The translations under genes and the position numbers were made by a program. This document shows positions 45,681-50,873 of a stretch of DNA of 58,436 nucleotides, in pieces (position 1 is the first letter of the stretch; every line of letters begins with the position of its first letter). The notes beneath the pieces are model-generated. The model did no database searches, had not been told where the DNA came from, and was given only the letters and a program-made list of their open reading frames with translations. This DNA comes from Flavobacteriaceae bacterium. Lineage in GTDB: Bacteria > Bacteroidota > Bacteroidia > Flavobacteriales > Flavobacteriaceae. The stretch lies in the NCBI GenBank assembly GCA_029939235.1, contig JAOZTG010000002.1:1-58436 (forward strand), read 5' to 3'.

Positions 45681-46973
45681 CTATTTCAATAAAAATTCTT
45701 TCAACTGTTTATAACTATCAATAAGGCTTGCTTCCTTTTTTTTATTGATAACCTGCTTAATCTGCTCAGGAAAATCAATTTTTTTATCAATTACAGGTTC
45801 AATTACATCCAGAAACTTTACAGGATGAGCTGTTTCAAAAAACACTCCCTGTTTATCAGAGTCATTTTTAAGATATTTCTTTAATCCTAAATATCCTACA
45901 GCGCCATGGGGATCTGTAATATAATTACTGTTTTTGAAAATGGATAAAATAGTTTCTTTGGTTTCTTCATCTGTAAAAGAATAAGAGGAAAGATGTTCTT
46001 TGATCTTTTCGAAATCATTGTTAAAAATATTTTGAATTCGAATAAAATTACTCGGATTTCCAACATCCATTGCATTTGAAATGGTTTGTATTGATTTTAA
46101 CGGAATATAATTTCCGGTTTGCATAAAATTTGGAACAACTCTGTTCACATTTGTAGCTGCAATAAAATGATAGATAGGCAGACCTAATTGTTGTGCCATC
46201 ATACCAGCGCAAATATTACCAAAATTACCACTTGGGATAGAGAAAACAACTTCTTTACTATTGTTTTTTAGTTGTTTATATGCAAAAGCGAAATAAAACA
46301 TTTGAGGGAGCCAACGAGCAACATTGATAGAGTTTGCAGAGGTTAATTGCATTTTATCTGTGATTTCATGATCTAAAAATGCGGTTTTTACCATATCCTG
46401 ACAATCATCAAAAGTTCCTGTAACTTCCAGTGCTTTGATGTTTTGTCCAAGCGTAGTAAGTTGTTTTTCCTGTACTTTGCTTACTTTTCCACTTGGATAT
46501 AAAATAACAACCTGTACACCTTTTACACCCAAAAAACCACTTGCAACTGCCCCGCCAGTATCTCCAGAGGTGGCAACAAGTACTGTTAACTCAGTTGTTT
46601 TGTTCTTGTTGAAATAAGATAGGCACCTAGCCATAAACCTGGCACCCACATCTTTAAAAGCCATGGTCGGACCATGAAACAATTCCAGACTAAAAATATC
46701 TTTTTCGACCTCAACCAAAGGAAAGTCAAAACTCAGCGTATCTTCAATAATTTCTTTGAGTTCCTTTTCAGGAATTTTATCCCCAACAAATTGTTTGATC
46801 AATTCATAAGCAATTTCATTGTTGGAATAATTTTCAATATTTTGGAAAAAATCAACAGGTAAAGCAGAAATGCTCTCCGGGAAATATAAACCTCTGTCGG
46901 GTGCAATACCATTTACTACTGCTTCCTGAAAACTTACGTTCGGCGCTTGATGATTCAGACTGTAAAACTTCAT
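45681..46973 (-). CDS. thrC: Threonine synthase
   Basis: ThrC converts O-phosphohomoserine to threonine with PLP. The 430-residue protein has MKFYSLNHQAPNVSFQEAV, LFHGPTMAFKDVGARFMAR with the PLP lysine near residue 103, VLVATSGDTGGAVASGFLGV (phosphate-binding) and SIPSGNFGNICAGMMA. The ending FFETAHPVKFLDVIEP is also typical. It is last in thrA-thrB-thrC, 22 bases after thrB, under presumed control of the leader region upstream of thrA. Confidence 0.96.
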   Translation of the reverse strand: MKFYSLNHQAPNVSFQEAVVNGIAPDRGLYFPESISALPVDFFQNIENYSNNEIAYELIKQFVGDKIPEKELKEIIEDTLSFDFPLVEVEKDIFSLELFHGPTMAFKDVGARFMARCLSYFNKNKTTELTVLVATSGDTGGAVASGFLGVKGVQVVILYPSGKVSKVQEKQLTTLGQNIKALEVTGTFDDCQDMVKTAFLDHEITDKMQLTSANSINVARWLPQMFYFAFAYKQLKNNSKEVVFSIPSGNFGNICAGMMAQQLGLPIYHFIAATNVNRVVPNFMQTGNYIPLKSIQTISNAMDVGNPSNFIRIQNIFNNDFEKIKEHLSSYSFTDEETKETILSIFKNSNYITDPHGAVGYLGLKKYLKNDSDKQGVFFETAHPVKFLDVIEPVIDKKIDFPEQIKQVINKKKEASLIDSYKQLKEFLLK

Positions 46974-46995: not shown

Positions 46996-47946
46996 TTATT
47001 GGATGCTTATTATTTTAATTCCTTGTGTATTGATCTTTGATACATAATGATGTGATTCAATATGTGTATTTTTAAATATCAAACTTAATTTATCTGATAT
47101 AATTTCAGCTATTTGTATACCTTTACTAAATGTAAAAATAGAAGGTCCTGACCCTGAAATACCACATCCTAAAGCTCCTTCTTTTAAGGCCGTTTTTTTT
47201 ATTTTATCAAACTCTGGGATCAGTTTTGATCGATGTGGCTCTACAATATAATCCTTTAAAGAATTTGATAAAAGCTCATAATCTTCCGTATGTAATGCAT
47301 GTACAAAAGCACCTACATTAGCCCATTGTTTTACCCCGTCTTTTAAAGGTATTTTGTCGGGTAAAACGGCTCTGGAATCAGCTGTTTTAATTTCGATCTG
47401 AGGATGAATGATGGTTGCGTAAAGATCTTTTAGTGTTGGTAATTGTAATATTTCCAGAGGGGCTGTACTTCTTACTAAAGTGAATCCTCCAAAAATAGCC
47501 GGTGCCACATTGTCGGCTATGGGTGAACCACAGGCAAGTTCTTCTCCTTTTCTGGCAAATTCTACTAATTCTAATTTAGAAAATGGTTTATCGAGTAATT
47601 CATTGATTGCAAAAACAGCACCGGCAGCACTTGCAGCACTACTGCCAATACCACTTCCTGGTTTTATGTTTTTGTATATTTCAATTTCAAAACCACCTTG
47701 ATAATTAGTAAGTTCTTTATTTGATGCTAATTTATCTAAAAGGGCTAAAGCTGCAACACCTGCAACATTGTTGTTGGCTTCATAGGGTAGATCCATACCA
47801 ACTATTTTTGTGATCTTAATTCCCTTTTCAGGAGATTTTCTTATGATCATTTCGTCGCCAATCGTATCTAAACAGCAGCCAAGGACATCAAAGCCGCAAG
47901 AAATATTGGCAATGGTTGCAGGTGCAAAAATTTTTATTTCTTTCAT
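46996..47946 (-). CDS. thrB: Homoserine kinase
   Basis: ThrB phosphorylates homoserine. The 316-residue GHMP kinase has IFAPATIANISCGFDVLGCC, the ATP loop IKPGSGIGSSAASAAGAVFA near residue 95, and the third motif LGCGISGSGPSIFTF near 262. Full length, and placed between thrA (12 bases) and thrC (22 bases). Confidence 0.96.
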   Translation of the reverse strand: MKEIKIFAPATIANISCGFDVLGCCLDTIGDEMIIRKSPEKGIKITKIVGMDLPYEANNNVAGVAALALLDKLASNKELTNYQGGFEIEIYKNIKPGSGIGSSAASAAGAVFAINELLDKPFSKLELVEFARKGEELACGSPIADNVAPAIFGGFTLVRSTAPLEILQLPTLKDLYATIIHPQIEIKTADSRAVLPDKIPLKDGVKQWANVGAFVHALHTEDYELLSNSLKDYIVEPHRSKLIPEFDKIKKTALKEGALGCGISGSGPSIFTFSKGIQIAEIISDKLSLIFKNTHIESHHYVSKINTQGIKIISIQ

Positions 47947-47958
47947 GTGTTTCAGTAT

Positions 47959-50403
47959 CTACTTATTTCCTGTTCTGATAATATCACCAAAAATACCCGA
48001 TGCAGTTACGTCCGCTCCGGCACCTGCACCTTTAATAATCAAAGGCTGTTCTTTGTAGCGATTTGTATAAAACAATACAATATTATCTTTTCCTTCTAAA
48101 TTATAAAAAGGATGATCTTTTGCTATGTGTTGTAAGCCAACTTTTGCTTTACCATTTTTGTATTCGGCAACATATTTTAATCTACAACCTTCTTTTTCGG
48201 CAGCTTCTCTTAGACTTTTAAAATGTTCTTCTTCTTTTTTTAATGTTTCCATAAAATCTGCAACAGAATCTGCATCTAAGGAACTTTGTGGTAAAAATGA
48301 ATGATTTTCAATTTCTTCCAATTCCATTTCGTTGCCGCTTTCACGGGCTAAAATTAAGATTTTTCGCATCACATCAACTCCACTCAGATCAATTCTGGGA
48401 TCAGGTTCAGTATACCCTTCAATTCCGGCTTGTTTTACAACTTCGTAAAAAGAAGTATTTCTATCATACTTGTTAAAAATAAAGTTTAAACTACCTGATA
48501 AAACAGCTTGAATTTCAGTGACCTCATCACCTGAGGCAATCAAATTATTTAATGTGTCGATTATAGGCAATCCGGCTCCTACATTTGTTTCAAACAAAAA
48601 TGGAGCATTGTATTTTCTGGCAAGAAATTTAAGCTTTTTATAATTTTCAATATTTGATGAGCAGGCTATTTTGTTGCAGGCAACTACAGCAACACTATCT
48701 TTTAAGTATTTAGTATATTGTTCCGGAACGTCATTATTTGCAGTGTTATCAACAAAAACACTGTTACGTAAATTAAGCTGTTTGGTCTTTTTATAAAAAA
48801 TATCCAGATCTGCTTTTTCTCCCTTTTTATCTAATGCTTTAGCCCAGGAAGAAAGATTGATGCCTTTTTCATCAAACAACATTTTCCTTGAATTTGCAAG
48901 AGCGATTACTTTAATATCAATATGTAGTTTTTTCAATAAATAGGATTGTTGTTGATGTATTTGATCTAACAATTTACTGCCAACATTTCCAACTCCTACA
49001 ATAAATAAGTTGATACTTTTGATCTGATTTTCAAAAAAGGCGCTATGAAGAGAATTCAAAGCTTTTTTGACATCTTTTTTTGCAATAACTGCTGAGATGT
49101 TTTTCTCTGTAGATCCTTGTGCAATTGCTCTGATATTTACATTGTTATTTCCCAGTTCACTAAACATTTTGCCGCTTATTCCCTGATGAGATTTCATATT
49201 GTCACCAATCAAAGCAATGATAGCAAGATCTTTTTCAACGATTAAGGGATTGACCTTGTTTTGAAAAATTTCAAATTCAAATTGTTTATCAATGGCATTT
49301 TTAGCCTTTGTAGCATCTGCCAGGTCAATTGCAAAACAAATTGAATGTTCACTGGATGCCTGAGTAATAAATTTCACATTGATTAAGTGCAGTGAAAGTG
49401 CTTCAAACAATCGTTTAGAAATTCCAGGAACACCTATCATTCCATTTCCTTCAAGCGTTAATAAGGCAATGTCGTCAATATGGCTGATTCCTTTAACAGC
49501 AGATTTTTTAATACTTTTACCTTTGTGGATCAAAGTTCCCTCTTCATTTGGTGCCAATGTATTTTTAATGATAATTGGAATTTTCTTATTTAAAGCAGGC
49601 TGAATAGTAGGAGGAAAGATAACCTTTGCCCCAAAATGAGAAAGTTCCATCGCTTCCTGATAAGAAATTTCTTTAATGGGTTTGGCTTGTTTTACCAATT
49701 TTGGATTTGCTGTAAACATACCACTTACATCTGTCCATATTTCTAAAACTTCTGCATCTAATGCATTCGCATAAATGGCAGCCGTATAATCTGAACCTCC
49801 TCTTCCTAAAGTAGTAGTTTCACCTTCATCATCGGAAGATATAAAGCCGGCCAATACAGTTATATCATGTTCGTCATTTAAAAAATAGGTATTAATATTC
49901 TCATATGTTAAGTCAAAATTAACTGCGGCATCGGTATAATTTTCATTTGTTTTGATCAATGATCTGCTATCTTTTAAAATAGCATTTAAGCCTTTGTTTT
50001 TCATTGCTTTTGCAATAATAAAAGAAGACAGAATTTCACCGGTGCTAACTATTTTAGCAAGTGATTTCTCAGAAAGGTCATTTAATGTAAATACGCTCTT
50101 AAGCATATCTTTTAACAAATCTAATTTTTTAGATATGAATGTATGGATGTGTTTTTGATCATCATTGCCAAAAAGCTCTTCAATTGTCTCGGTATGTTTA
50201 TTTTGGATCTTTTCTAAAACATCCATGTATTTTTTATTTCCATCTTTCGCAAGATCACTGGCTTCGATCAATAGATTTGTTATGCCACCAAGTGCAGAAA
50301 CTACAACAATGGTTTTTTTATTTTTGTCACCAATAATTTGGATGATTTTTTTGATATTTTTTGCAGAACCAACCGAAGTTCCGCCAAATTTTGAAACGAT
50401 CAT
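47959..50403 (-). CDS. thrA: Bifunctional aspartate kinase / homoserine dehydrogenase I
   Basis: ThrA carries out the first and third steps from aspartate toward threonine. The 814-residue protein has an aspartate-kinase half (SKFGGTSVGSAKNIKKI, AGFISSDDEGETTTLGRGGS, then a TDVSGMFTANPK block), two ACT domains (about 315-460; GNGMIGVPGISKRLFEAL and GDNMKSHQGISGKMFSEL), and a homoserine dehydrogenase half from about 465 (LFIVGVGNVGSKLLDQI, VACNKIACS, NVGAGLPIIDTLNN). E. coli ThrA has the same layout and is inhibited by threonine through the ACT region. It heads the thr operon; its 5' leader contains a short Thr/Ile-rich open frame. Confidence 0.96.
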   Translation of the reverse strand: MIVSKFGGTSVGSAKNIKKIIQIIGDKNKKTIVVVSALGGITNLLIEASDLAKDGNKKYMDVLEKIQNKHTETIEELFGNDDQKHIHTFISKKLDLLKDMLKSVFTLNDLSEKSLAKIVSTGEILSSFIIAKAMKNKGLNAILKDSRSLIKTNENYTDAAVNFDLTYENINTYFLNDEHDITVLAGFISSDDEGETTTLGRGGSDYTAAIYANALDAEVLEIWTDVSGMFTANPKLVKQAKPIKEISYQEAMELSHFGAKVIFPPTIQPALNKKIPIIIKNTLAPNEEGTLIHKGKSIKKSAVKGISHIDDIALLTLEGNGMIGVPGISKRLFEALSLHLINVKFITQASSEHSICFAIDLADATKAKNAIDKQFEFEIFQNKVNPLIVEKDLAIIALIGDNMKSHQGISGKMFSELGNNNVNIRAIAQGSTEKNISAVIAKKDVKKALNSLHSAFFENQIKSINLFIVGVGNVGSKLLDQIHQQQSYLLKKLHIDIKVIALANSRKMLFDEKGINLSSWAKALDKKGEKADLDIFYKKTKQLNLRNSVFVDNTANNDVPEQYTKYLKDSVAVVACNKIACSSNIENYKKLKFLARKYNAPFLFETNVGAGLPIIDTLNNLIASGDEVTEIQAVLSGSLNFIFNKYDRNTSFYEVVKQAGIEGYTEPDPRIDLSGVDVMRKILILARESGNEMELEEIENHSFLPQSSLDADSVADFMETLKKEEEHFKSLREAAEKEGCRLKYVAEYKNGKAKVGLQHIAKDHPFYNLEGKDNIVLFYTNRYKEQPLIIKGAGAGADVTASGIFGDIIRTGNK

Positions 50404-50442
50404 TATTTCAGTTTTATATTTAAAATGTTTTGTTTGATGCTG

Positions 50443-50477
50443 AAAATTTATATGTGCCTTTTATGAATATAAATCTT
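50443..50477 (-). promoter_or_regulatory. AT-rich stem-loop in the thrA leader
   Basis: On the minus strand AAGATTTATAT (50477-50467) pairs with ATATAAATTTT (50453-50443) over 11 bp with one G-U pair, with a 13-base loop. It lies between the leader peptide stop and the thrA start. The 3' arm ends in four T but no longer T run follows, so it is not a textbook terminator. Confidence 0.4.
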
Positions 50478-50506
50478 TTGGACGATGTGATATATAGTGA
50501 ACAACC

Positions 50507-50536
50507 CTAAAGGGTAGTAATTGTAGTAATAACCAT
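50507..50536 (-). CDS. Thr/Ile-rich leader peptide of the thr operon
   Basis: A nine-codon ORF with stop reads MVITTITTL on the minus strand, 103 bases before the thrA ATG. Four of nine residues are Thr and two are Ile. E. coli thrL encodes a leader rich in the same two amino acids, and ribosome stalling there relieves premature termination of the thr operon. A predicted -7 element, TATATTTG, lies 46 bases upstream of the ATG, so the frame is inside the transcript leader. It is too short to be chosen on length; the codon content and exact location are the evidence. The structural switch is not resolved: GTGATA (50578-50573) at the 5' end can pair with TATCAC (50492-50487) after the peptide. 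Confidence 0.75.
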   Translation of the reverse strand: MVITTITTL

Positions 50537-50582
50537 TGAAAGTTGGTTTGTATAGATGCTATTTGTTTCTTGTATCACGCTA

Positions 50583-50590
50583 CAAATATA
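50583..50590 (-). promoter_or_regulatory. Candidate -7 element of the thrABC operon
   Basis: TATATTTG on the minus strand matches TAnnTTTG. It would start RNA near 50576, giving a leader of about 175 bases that includes the Thr/Ile peptide. No TTG was found at the normal upstream distance. Confidence 0.5.
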
Positions 50591-50873
50591 GAGCATTTTT
50601 TTAATTGATAAAAAAATAACTAATTTATTTGATAGATTATTATATTTACCCAAAAGCATTAAATTATTCGTGCTTTTTTCGGTGTTACATTGATAATATA
50701 TAAATCAATTTAAATTTAAATAAGGCAAAACTGGCCTTGTAAATCACAAGACCGCAAAGGGTAATTTAACAAATTATTTTATGTATATTTGGTAAGTTGA
50801 TAAATTATAAGCCTTTATCAATCAAAATCAATTATAAACCAGGCTTGCAATTGTAAGCTAAAAAAAATTTATT
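50591..50873. other. Intergenic region between thr operon promoter and hdeD-like gene
   Basis: No gene is seen. GGCCTTGT (50733-50740) and ACAAGACC (50746-50753) form a hairpin with one mismatch. On the plus strand TATATTTG (50784-50791) matches the -7 consensus and suits the hdeD-like gene, giving a leader of roughly 75 bases. The rest is low-complexity AT-rich DNA. Confidence 0.6.
50784..50791 (+). promoter_or_regulatory. Candidate -7 element of the hdeD-like gene
   Basis: TATATTTG on the plus strand, 82 bases before the start codon, matches TAnnTTTG. No TTG partner is obvious. Confidence 0.45.

Follow-up and report, generated by a model that had tools for sequence, protein, structure and literature searches.

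Leader-peptide attenuation is textbook biology and mostly relies on an intrinsic terminator. In the thrL leader of enteric bacteria, the sensor is a ribosome that stalls on threonine (Thr) and isoleucine (Ile) codons. Attenuation in the tnaC leader of E. coli proceeds via Rho, and stalling there occurs upon excess free tryptophan (Trp). A comparative study by Vitreschak and colleagues in 2004 reportedly predicted attenuators for some Bacteroidetes operons. Here, we describe a thr leader directly upstream of thrABC in a stretch of 58,436 nucleotides (nt) from a Flavobacteriaceae bacterium (GenBank assembly GCA_029939235.1, contig JAOZTG010000002.1, positions 1 to 58,436 of the forward strand), hereafter the window. 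A conserved Thr/Ile leader peptide is followed at this locus by no intrinsic terminator. The known thr leader is listed in Rfam as Thr_leader, presumably RF00506; when the window was searched with cmscan, no Rfam family reached its gathering score.

Elements of this kind have partial precedents in the literature. Strong clues for leader-peptide attenuation upstream of amino-acid operons are described for Flavobacterium psychrophilum, with the pheA and hisG elements named as conserved, in a main-text section of PMC9723704. For Bacteroides thetaiotaomicron, a passage of PMC7366714 mentions short open reading frames (ORFs) that resemble leader peptides. The main text of PMC6847099 describes a phylum without Shine-Dalgarno sequences and mentions neither leader peptides nor attenuation. 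Terminator-less cys leaders of Mycobacterium, with Rho proposed, are treated in a passage of PMC1262725. No paper on a flavobacterial thr leader was found in a search judged by titles and the beginnings of abstracts and lying mostly outside the subscription literature. Leader-peptide attenuation is already known; these comparisons suggest that a thr leader without a terminator is a new variation on it in flavobacteria.

Upstream of thrA, the window contains a leader ORF with a run of Thr and Ile codons, a hairpin over its stop codon (P1) and an AU-rich hairpin in the gap before thrA (P2), and it lacks a T-tailed terminator. From these features we infer ribosome stalling, the direction of control, pausing, the involvement of Rho and transcription attenuation itself. 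Our favoured reading, to which we give about an even chance, is a Thr/Ile leader-peptide attenuator of thrABC that works without an intrinsic terminator, preferably through Rho. The ORF comprises 23 codons, VIQETNSIYTNQLSMVITTITTL followed by TAG (50509-50507), and its GTG start is separated by four bases from TATATTTG, a match to TAnnTTTG. This motif is given as the consensus of flavobacterial sigma A promoters in PMC9723704. The 3' end of the ORF reads ATG GTT ATT ACT ACA ATT ACT ACC CTT TAG. An earlier reading of the window made from the letters alone (the sequence-only reading) had placed a nine-codon leader, MVITTITTL, between the TAnnTTTG element and thrA. The placement was right and six of the nine residues are Thr or Ile, but the nine codons are only the C-terminal end of the longer ORF. 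Their ATG most likely encodes an internal Met, because the ORF begins 2-23 nt after TAnnTTTG in relatives.

Conservation was assessed in 127 thrA upstream regions from the genus of the window and from family f1, which we take as Flavobacteriaceae. The family set includes 100 newly added loci, best E-values first among the family places listed, and excludes three aspartate kinases judged not to be thrA (L022, L029, L030). A strict leader test required TAnnTTTG and, within 27 nt, the start of an ORF of 14-50 codons whose end holds at least five Thr/Ile per 12 residues and at least three Thr. It was passed by 96 of the 127 regions, compared with 0.15 on average and never more than 1 in 20 rounds of dinucleotide shuffling. 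The P1 motif (ACCC-loop-GGGT) occurs in 108 regions (shuffled mean 0.65, maximum 3). Both counts agree with the initial judgement that the match of content and place exceeds chance. Within the genus, the leader is present in 16 of 17 regions and P1 in 17 of 17; the sole leader miss (L007) is cut by a contig end. In at least 10 of the 31 failing regions of the whole set, a Thr/Ile leader can still be recognised but falls short of a criterion or runs into a contig end.

In fourteen family members, the 240 nt preceding thrA contain no P1 motif; one of these, L207, has its Thr/Ile leader farther away, about 260 nt upstream. The other 13 of the 127 members (L019, L026, L121, L133, L136, L158, L165, L169, L174, L179, L184, L202, L208) show neither P1 nor a leader that can be recognised near thrA, which suggests that the device has been lost or replaced in them.

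In the comparison of related thrA upstream regions that the sequence-only reading had proposed as a check, the Thr/Ile run persists while peptide length (median 33 residues) and N-terminus vary. Typical ends are TTTNITTLWGC, TTTTPLG and TITTL. Within the codon-run stretch of the 96 leaders, Thr accounts for 37.5% and Ile for 15.8% of residues. The ratio of nonsynonymous to synonymous differences (pN/pS), calculated only from pairs that match in length and share at least 60% identity, is 0.57 at the codon run (510 pairs) and 0.80 over whole ORFs (255 pairs), a comparison that is purely descriptive. The family-wide conservation of ORF and run upholds the original proposal of a Thr/Ile leader peptide upstream of thrABC, probably with ribosome-mediated control. 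That this peptide senses Thr is, to judge from its codons, highly probable.

The stop-codon hairpin is the second conserved part. The Thr codon entering P1 is ACC, in frame, in all 96 leaders, whereas ACC makes up just 75 of the 576 Thr codons at other positions. Read from these alignments, Thr is kept throughout and its codon is fixed only where the hairpin requires it; constraint at the amino-acid level can therefore be separated from constraint at the RNA level. The stop codon falls within P1 or up to a few codons beyond. P1 is predicted to form with a mean probability of 0.91 (median 0.99), its stem has only 4-5 base pairs, and the bases after it are AU-mixed rather than U-rich. In four of five leaders of family f22, the arms are swapped to ACGGG/CCCGT with the stop codon in the loop, so pairing is retained there, within one family. 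Pairing between the 3' arm of P1 and the downstream motif was considered as a candidate and rejected: its summed probability of 0.52 is diffuse, with the best at about 21-25 nt, and it cannot hold in f22 because the arms are swapped there. An antiterminator check of the 96 leaders gave no strong shared pairing partner for this arm.

The usual output of an attenuator is missing. When the 96 thr leaders were scanned for hairpins with a T-tail at a threshold of -8 kcal/mol, a terminator was found in one, compared with 0-1 in three shuffle rounds. Looser thresholds gave 4 of 96 at -6 kcal/mol (shuffles 2-3) and 9 of 96 at -4 kcal/mol (shuffles 5-8). As a positive control, the same scan was applied to his leaders from these genomes or relatives of them. 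Of 30 his loci read, the 27 having a leader with at least three His were scored, and 26 of these 27 proved to have a T-tailed terminator. Textbook attenuators therefore exist in these cells, though not at thr. In the window, no T-tailed terminator is visible by eye, just as first described, and its leader (L001) is not among the four that reach -6 kcal/mol. The suspicion that the switch departs from the enteric model is thereby strengthened, and the sequences make it likely that the output is something other than a classical intrinsic terminator. In the same genome, upstream of hisG (L219), there is a his leader peptide, MTKNRLHRHHFHTCPQASVDDM, and then a T-tailed terminator, ACCCGTTTGAGTATATCAAACGGGTTTTTTTTT.

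Classical thr attenuators do occur in other families. Outside the family, a Thr/Ile leader was found at 28 of 76 thrA loci, of which 17 have P1 without a terminator, nine have a terminator and two have neither. All seven Thr leaders of family f17 (L251, L255, L256, L327, L328, L330, L333) carry strong T-tailed terminators of -15 to -22 kcal/mol and no P1. At L327, L328 and L256, the 5' arm of the terminator could pair with the end of the ORF (GGAGGAAG), in the manner of an antiterminator. A complete classical thr attenuator is found at about 240-375 of L307 (family f23): it has a 1:2 duplex of -9.5 whose loop includes the stop codon, a 2:3 antiterminator duplex of -18.9 and a T-tailed 3:4 terminator fold of -25.3 kcal/mol. 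Because L307 has a P1-like 1:2 pairing beside its 2:3 and 3:4 pairings, P1 is best read, from sequence comparison, as corresponding to hairpin 1:2 of classical attenuators, with the 3:4 terminator lost or never present here. L307 may represent an ancestral form of P1.

The untranslated gap between the leader stop and thrA measures 103 nt in the window (median 82 among the leaders). An ATATAT stretch lies about 8-14 nt downstream of P1 and is followed by YC/CCG. Beyond it lies P2; the AT-rich hairpin noticed in the sequence-only reading near 50443-50477 is present, and a covarying hairpin occupies that position in the genus. The sequence of P2 varies between clades while its pairing is retained. 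Among 14 genus members (L007, L016 and L017 of the 17 being left out), 19 cells are changed on both sides compared with 8.6 in shuffles (0/500 as high), and 76.8% of cells are paired versus at most 51.8% in slid versions. Among 28 members of a Flavobacterium-like clade, the respective values are 13 versus 2.7, with 98.5% paired and at most 51.0% when slid. In both clades, the both-side-changed cells and the covariation score lie above all 500 shuffles, which ignore relatedness and use structures drawn from the tested sequences themselves. Pairs changed on both sides are not above shuffles (6 versus 5.2 in the genus, 210/500; 3 versus 1.7 in the second clade, 70/500), and neither are further pair types (325/500 and 463/500). 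RNAalifold on 108 leaders gave two pairs and no covariation, because P1 is near-invariant and P2 clade-specific; clade-wise counts were therefore used. The leader of the window, folded on its own, does no better than its shuffles (z 0.04). A long-range pairing of GTGATA with TATCAC, also proposed earlier, does exist over 6 nt in the window, GTGATA being the beginning of the leader ORF, but it is not conserved: the longest complementarity in 16 genus members is 3-7 nt, compared with 3.3-4.4 nt after shuffling.

A model of the leader tail was built from 40 sequences, six of them from the genus, drawn from a tail alignment of 108 of the 127 regions. Searched against 22 genus genomes, it gave 13 matches at E <0.01, every one at thrA, and 14 of 15 at thrA at E <0.03, where L349 lies at thrA and L348 in unrelated sequence. 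Five weaker matches inspected by eye showed no leader. No second copy at another operon was found in these 22 genomes, in each of which 150 first-look candidates were scored, so that weaker copies could escape. Upstream of ilvD in the window's own genome, no Ile/Val/Leu leader was seen by eye. A fixed-spacing DNA pattern run on 246 genomes had too long a spacer and missed the window itself, and its eight matches were discounted.

The features of the locus are listed in Table 1. Just upstream of TATATTTG, on the same strand, TTATCAATTAAAAAAA (50596-50611) is strikingly conserved in the genus by eye; it is possibly an extended promoter or a binding site.

Table 1. Features of the thr operon and its leader in the window.
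Feature	Position	Strand	Description	Basis
TATATTTG	50583..50590	minus	TAnnTTTG match; transcript start predicted few bases downstream	Sequence; same position in relatives
thr leader peptide ORF	50507..50578	minus	GTG start, 23 codons plus TAG	Sequence; family-wide test
Control codons	50513..50530	minus	ATT ACT ACA ATT ACT ACC (Ile/Thr run)	Inside leader ORF
P1	50504..50515	minus	ACCC-UUUA-GGGU; 5' arm is the last Thr codon; stop codon spans loop and 3' arm	
TATATATCACATCGTCC	50480..50496	minus	AU-rich stretch, then YC/CCG-rich motif	Position profile; alignment
P2	50443..50479	minus	AU-rich hairpin between leader stop and thrA; no U-tract after	Genus covariation; second clade with different sequence
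thrA	47959..50403	minus	Aspartate kinase / homoserine dehydrogenase, 814 amino acids; named by resemblance	ORF and relatives
thrB	46996..47946	minus	Homoserine kinase; named by resemblance and operon order	ORF
thrC	45681..46973	minus	Threonine synthase; named by operon order only	ORF

The proposed switch would operate as follows. A ribosome would initiate on the leader ORF near the 5' end of the transcript. If Thr or Ile is scarce, it would stall at the ITT/TTT codons and cover the 5' arm of P1; if both are plentiful, it would reach the stop codon in P1 and depart, allowing P1 to fold. P1 and the state of the ribosome would then set whether RNA polymerase crosses the gap before thrA. P1 may act as a pause hairpin and so match the progress of the polymerase to that of the ribosome. 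Once the ribosome has left, Rho would terminate transcription in the C-rich, G-poor gap.

Since no T-tailed terminator is present, Rho-dependent termination is the most likely output. The gap has a C content of 0.165 and a G content of 0.090, with C exceeding G in 88 of 96 leaders versus 50 of 106 ordinary 5' flanks used as control (103 flanks in the binned control). In addition, the genome of the window encodes rho (TIGR00767, E 2.4e-187, above cut-off). Composition and gene together make Rho the leading, though unproven, output; we hold its identification in particular only tentatively, at somewhat below an even chance. Taken family-wide, the thr switch would combine the classical ribosome sensor and 1:2 hairpin with another output stage, in which P1, the AU/YC motif and P2 gate either Rho or some other factor; the his operon in these cells carries a classical terminator. 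We regard this broader picture as about evenly balanced.

Several points weigh against a Rho-dependent attenuator. The gap would lie outside the stretch covered by a ribosome stalled at the Thr codons, so the blocking of Rho is left unexplained, and P2 is conserved yet has no role in the Rho model. The excess of C over G peaks directly upstream of thrA (ratio 3.09), a place at which ordinary flanks are also poorest in G, and falls to a ratio of just 1.1 in the bin covering 20-40 nt after P1; the bias is not specific to Rho. Furthermore, folding of the gap is only slightly better than in shuffles (mean z -0.44).

Among the alternatives, control could be post-transcriptional: a stalled or released ribosome would alter initiation of thrA translation or leader mRNA stability, P1 and P2 then being regulatory or protective hairpins. 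We consider this rather unlikely, though it accommodates both the absence of a terminator and the conservation of the two hairpins that separate the codon run from thrA. Terminator-less leaders are also discussed for Actinobacteria in a passage of PMC1262725. However, modelled stalling barely shifts the accessibility of the thrA start (mean 0.002, above 0.1 in 4 of 96 leaders). In the model, accessibility of the start is the same whether or not a ribosome is stalled, which argues against start masking, a candidate that is thus not supported.

Also unlikely is a classical intrinsic attenuator whose terminator is weak or atypical, in which P1 with AU-rich RNA, or P2, frees the polymerase without a proper U-tract. 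The four leaders with a T-tail at -6 kcal/mol each use P1 or its 3' arm in the hairpin (L218 -11.1, L027 -7.2, L215 -6.9, L135 -6.3), T-rich sequence directly follows P1 in some genus members, and P2 is conserved as a hairpin. By eye, L237 of family f22 also shows a 4-base-pair hairpin followed by six T, below the threshold. Against these stand the near-shuffle counts at every threshold, set beside the his result from the same scan, and the short stem of P1 with its AU-mixed rather than U-rich sequel.

It is quite improbable that the position of the ribosome decides on the formation of P2 through pairing of the Ile-Thr codons (ATYACAA) with the 5' arm of P2. TTGTAAT of P2 offers a pairing partner for ATTACAA in the Flavobacterium-like clade, and L148 and L170 differ from the ATT/TTGTAAT of their neighbours on both sides (ATCACAA with TTGTGAT), a weak hint of such pairing. 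Across 26 of the 28 clade members, the longest codon-P2 run averages 5.77, compared with 5.48 after swaps among genomes; 4 of 200 swaps were as high, in a test that ignores relatedness. The run is nevertheless only 3-5 in six of the eight members listed with an altered arm (L134, L145, L147, L191, L199, L120), and no such complementarity was seen by eye in the genus of the window. Finally, that the Thr/Ile ORF is non-regulatory, whether a chance occurrence or a small functional peptide, is extremely improbable: the 13 members with neither leader nor P1 do mean that the device is dispensable, but the shuffled controls, the persistence of the Thr/Ile run and P1 while length and N-terminus vary, and the Thr leaders with strong terminators in another family all speak against it.

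With one genome carrying the same kind of sensor at two operons, thr and his, with different outputs, these leaders provide a natural setting for the study of Rho, pausing and coupling in a phylum without Shine-Dalgarno sequences. As a classical thr switch exists in other families, exchange of the output stage is testable in culturable flavobacteria.

Compared with known systems, the locus shares with the enteric thr attenuator (thrL) a Thr/Ile-rich leader peptide directly upstream of thrABC. It differs in having no T-tailed terminator, a hairpin over the stop codon and a start codon near the promoter element. With tnaC it has in common a leader peptide without an intrinsic terminator; Rho acts at tnaC and is only a candidate here, where codon starvation is the expected signal and two conserved hairpins are added. 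The cys leaders of Mycobacterium likewise combine a leader peptide with the lack of an intrinsic terminator, as a passage of PMC1262725 describes. The main-text section on structured 5' regions of F. psychrophilum, supplements aside, names no thrA, P1, P2 or missing terminator (PMC9723704). The thr attenuators of f17 and L307 resemble this one in their Thr/Ile leader peptide at thrA and, in L307, also in a 1:2 hairpin that is similar to P1 and has a loop containing the stop codon, whereas theirs end in strong terminators (all seven in f17) and L307 combines all three pairings, 1:2, 2:3 and 3:4. The his attenuators of this genome and its relatives are alike in placing a leader peptide with the codons of the product upstream of the first gene, and differ in that they almost all carry the T-tailed terminator that the thr leaders lack.

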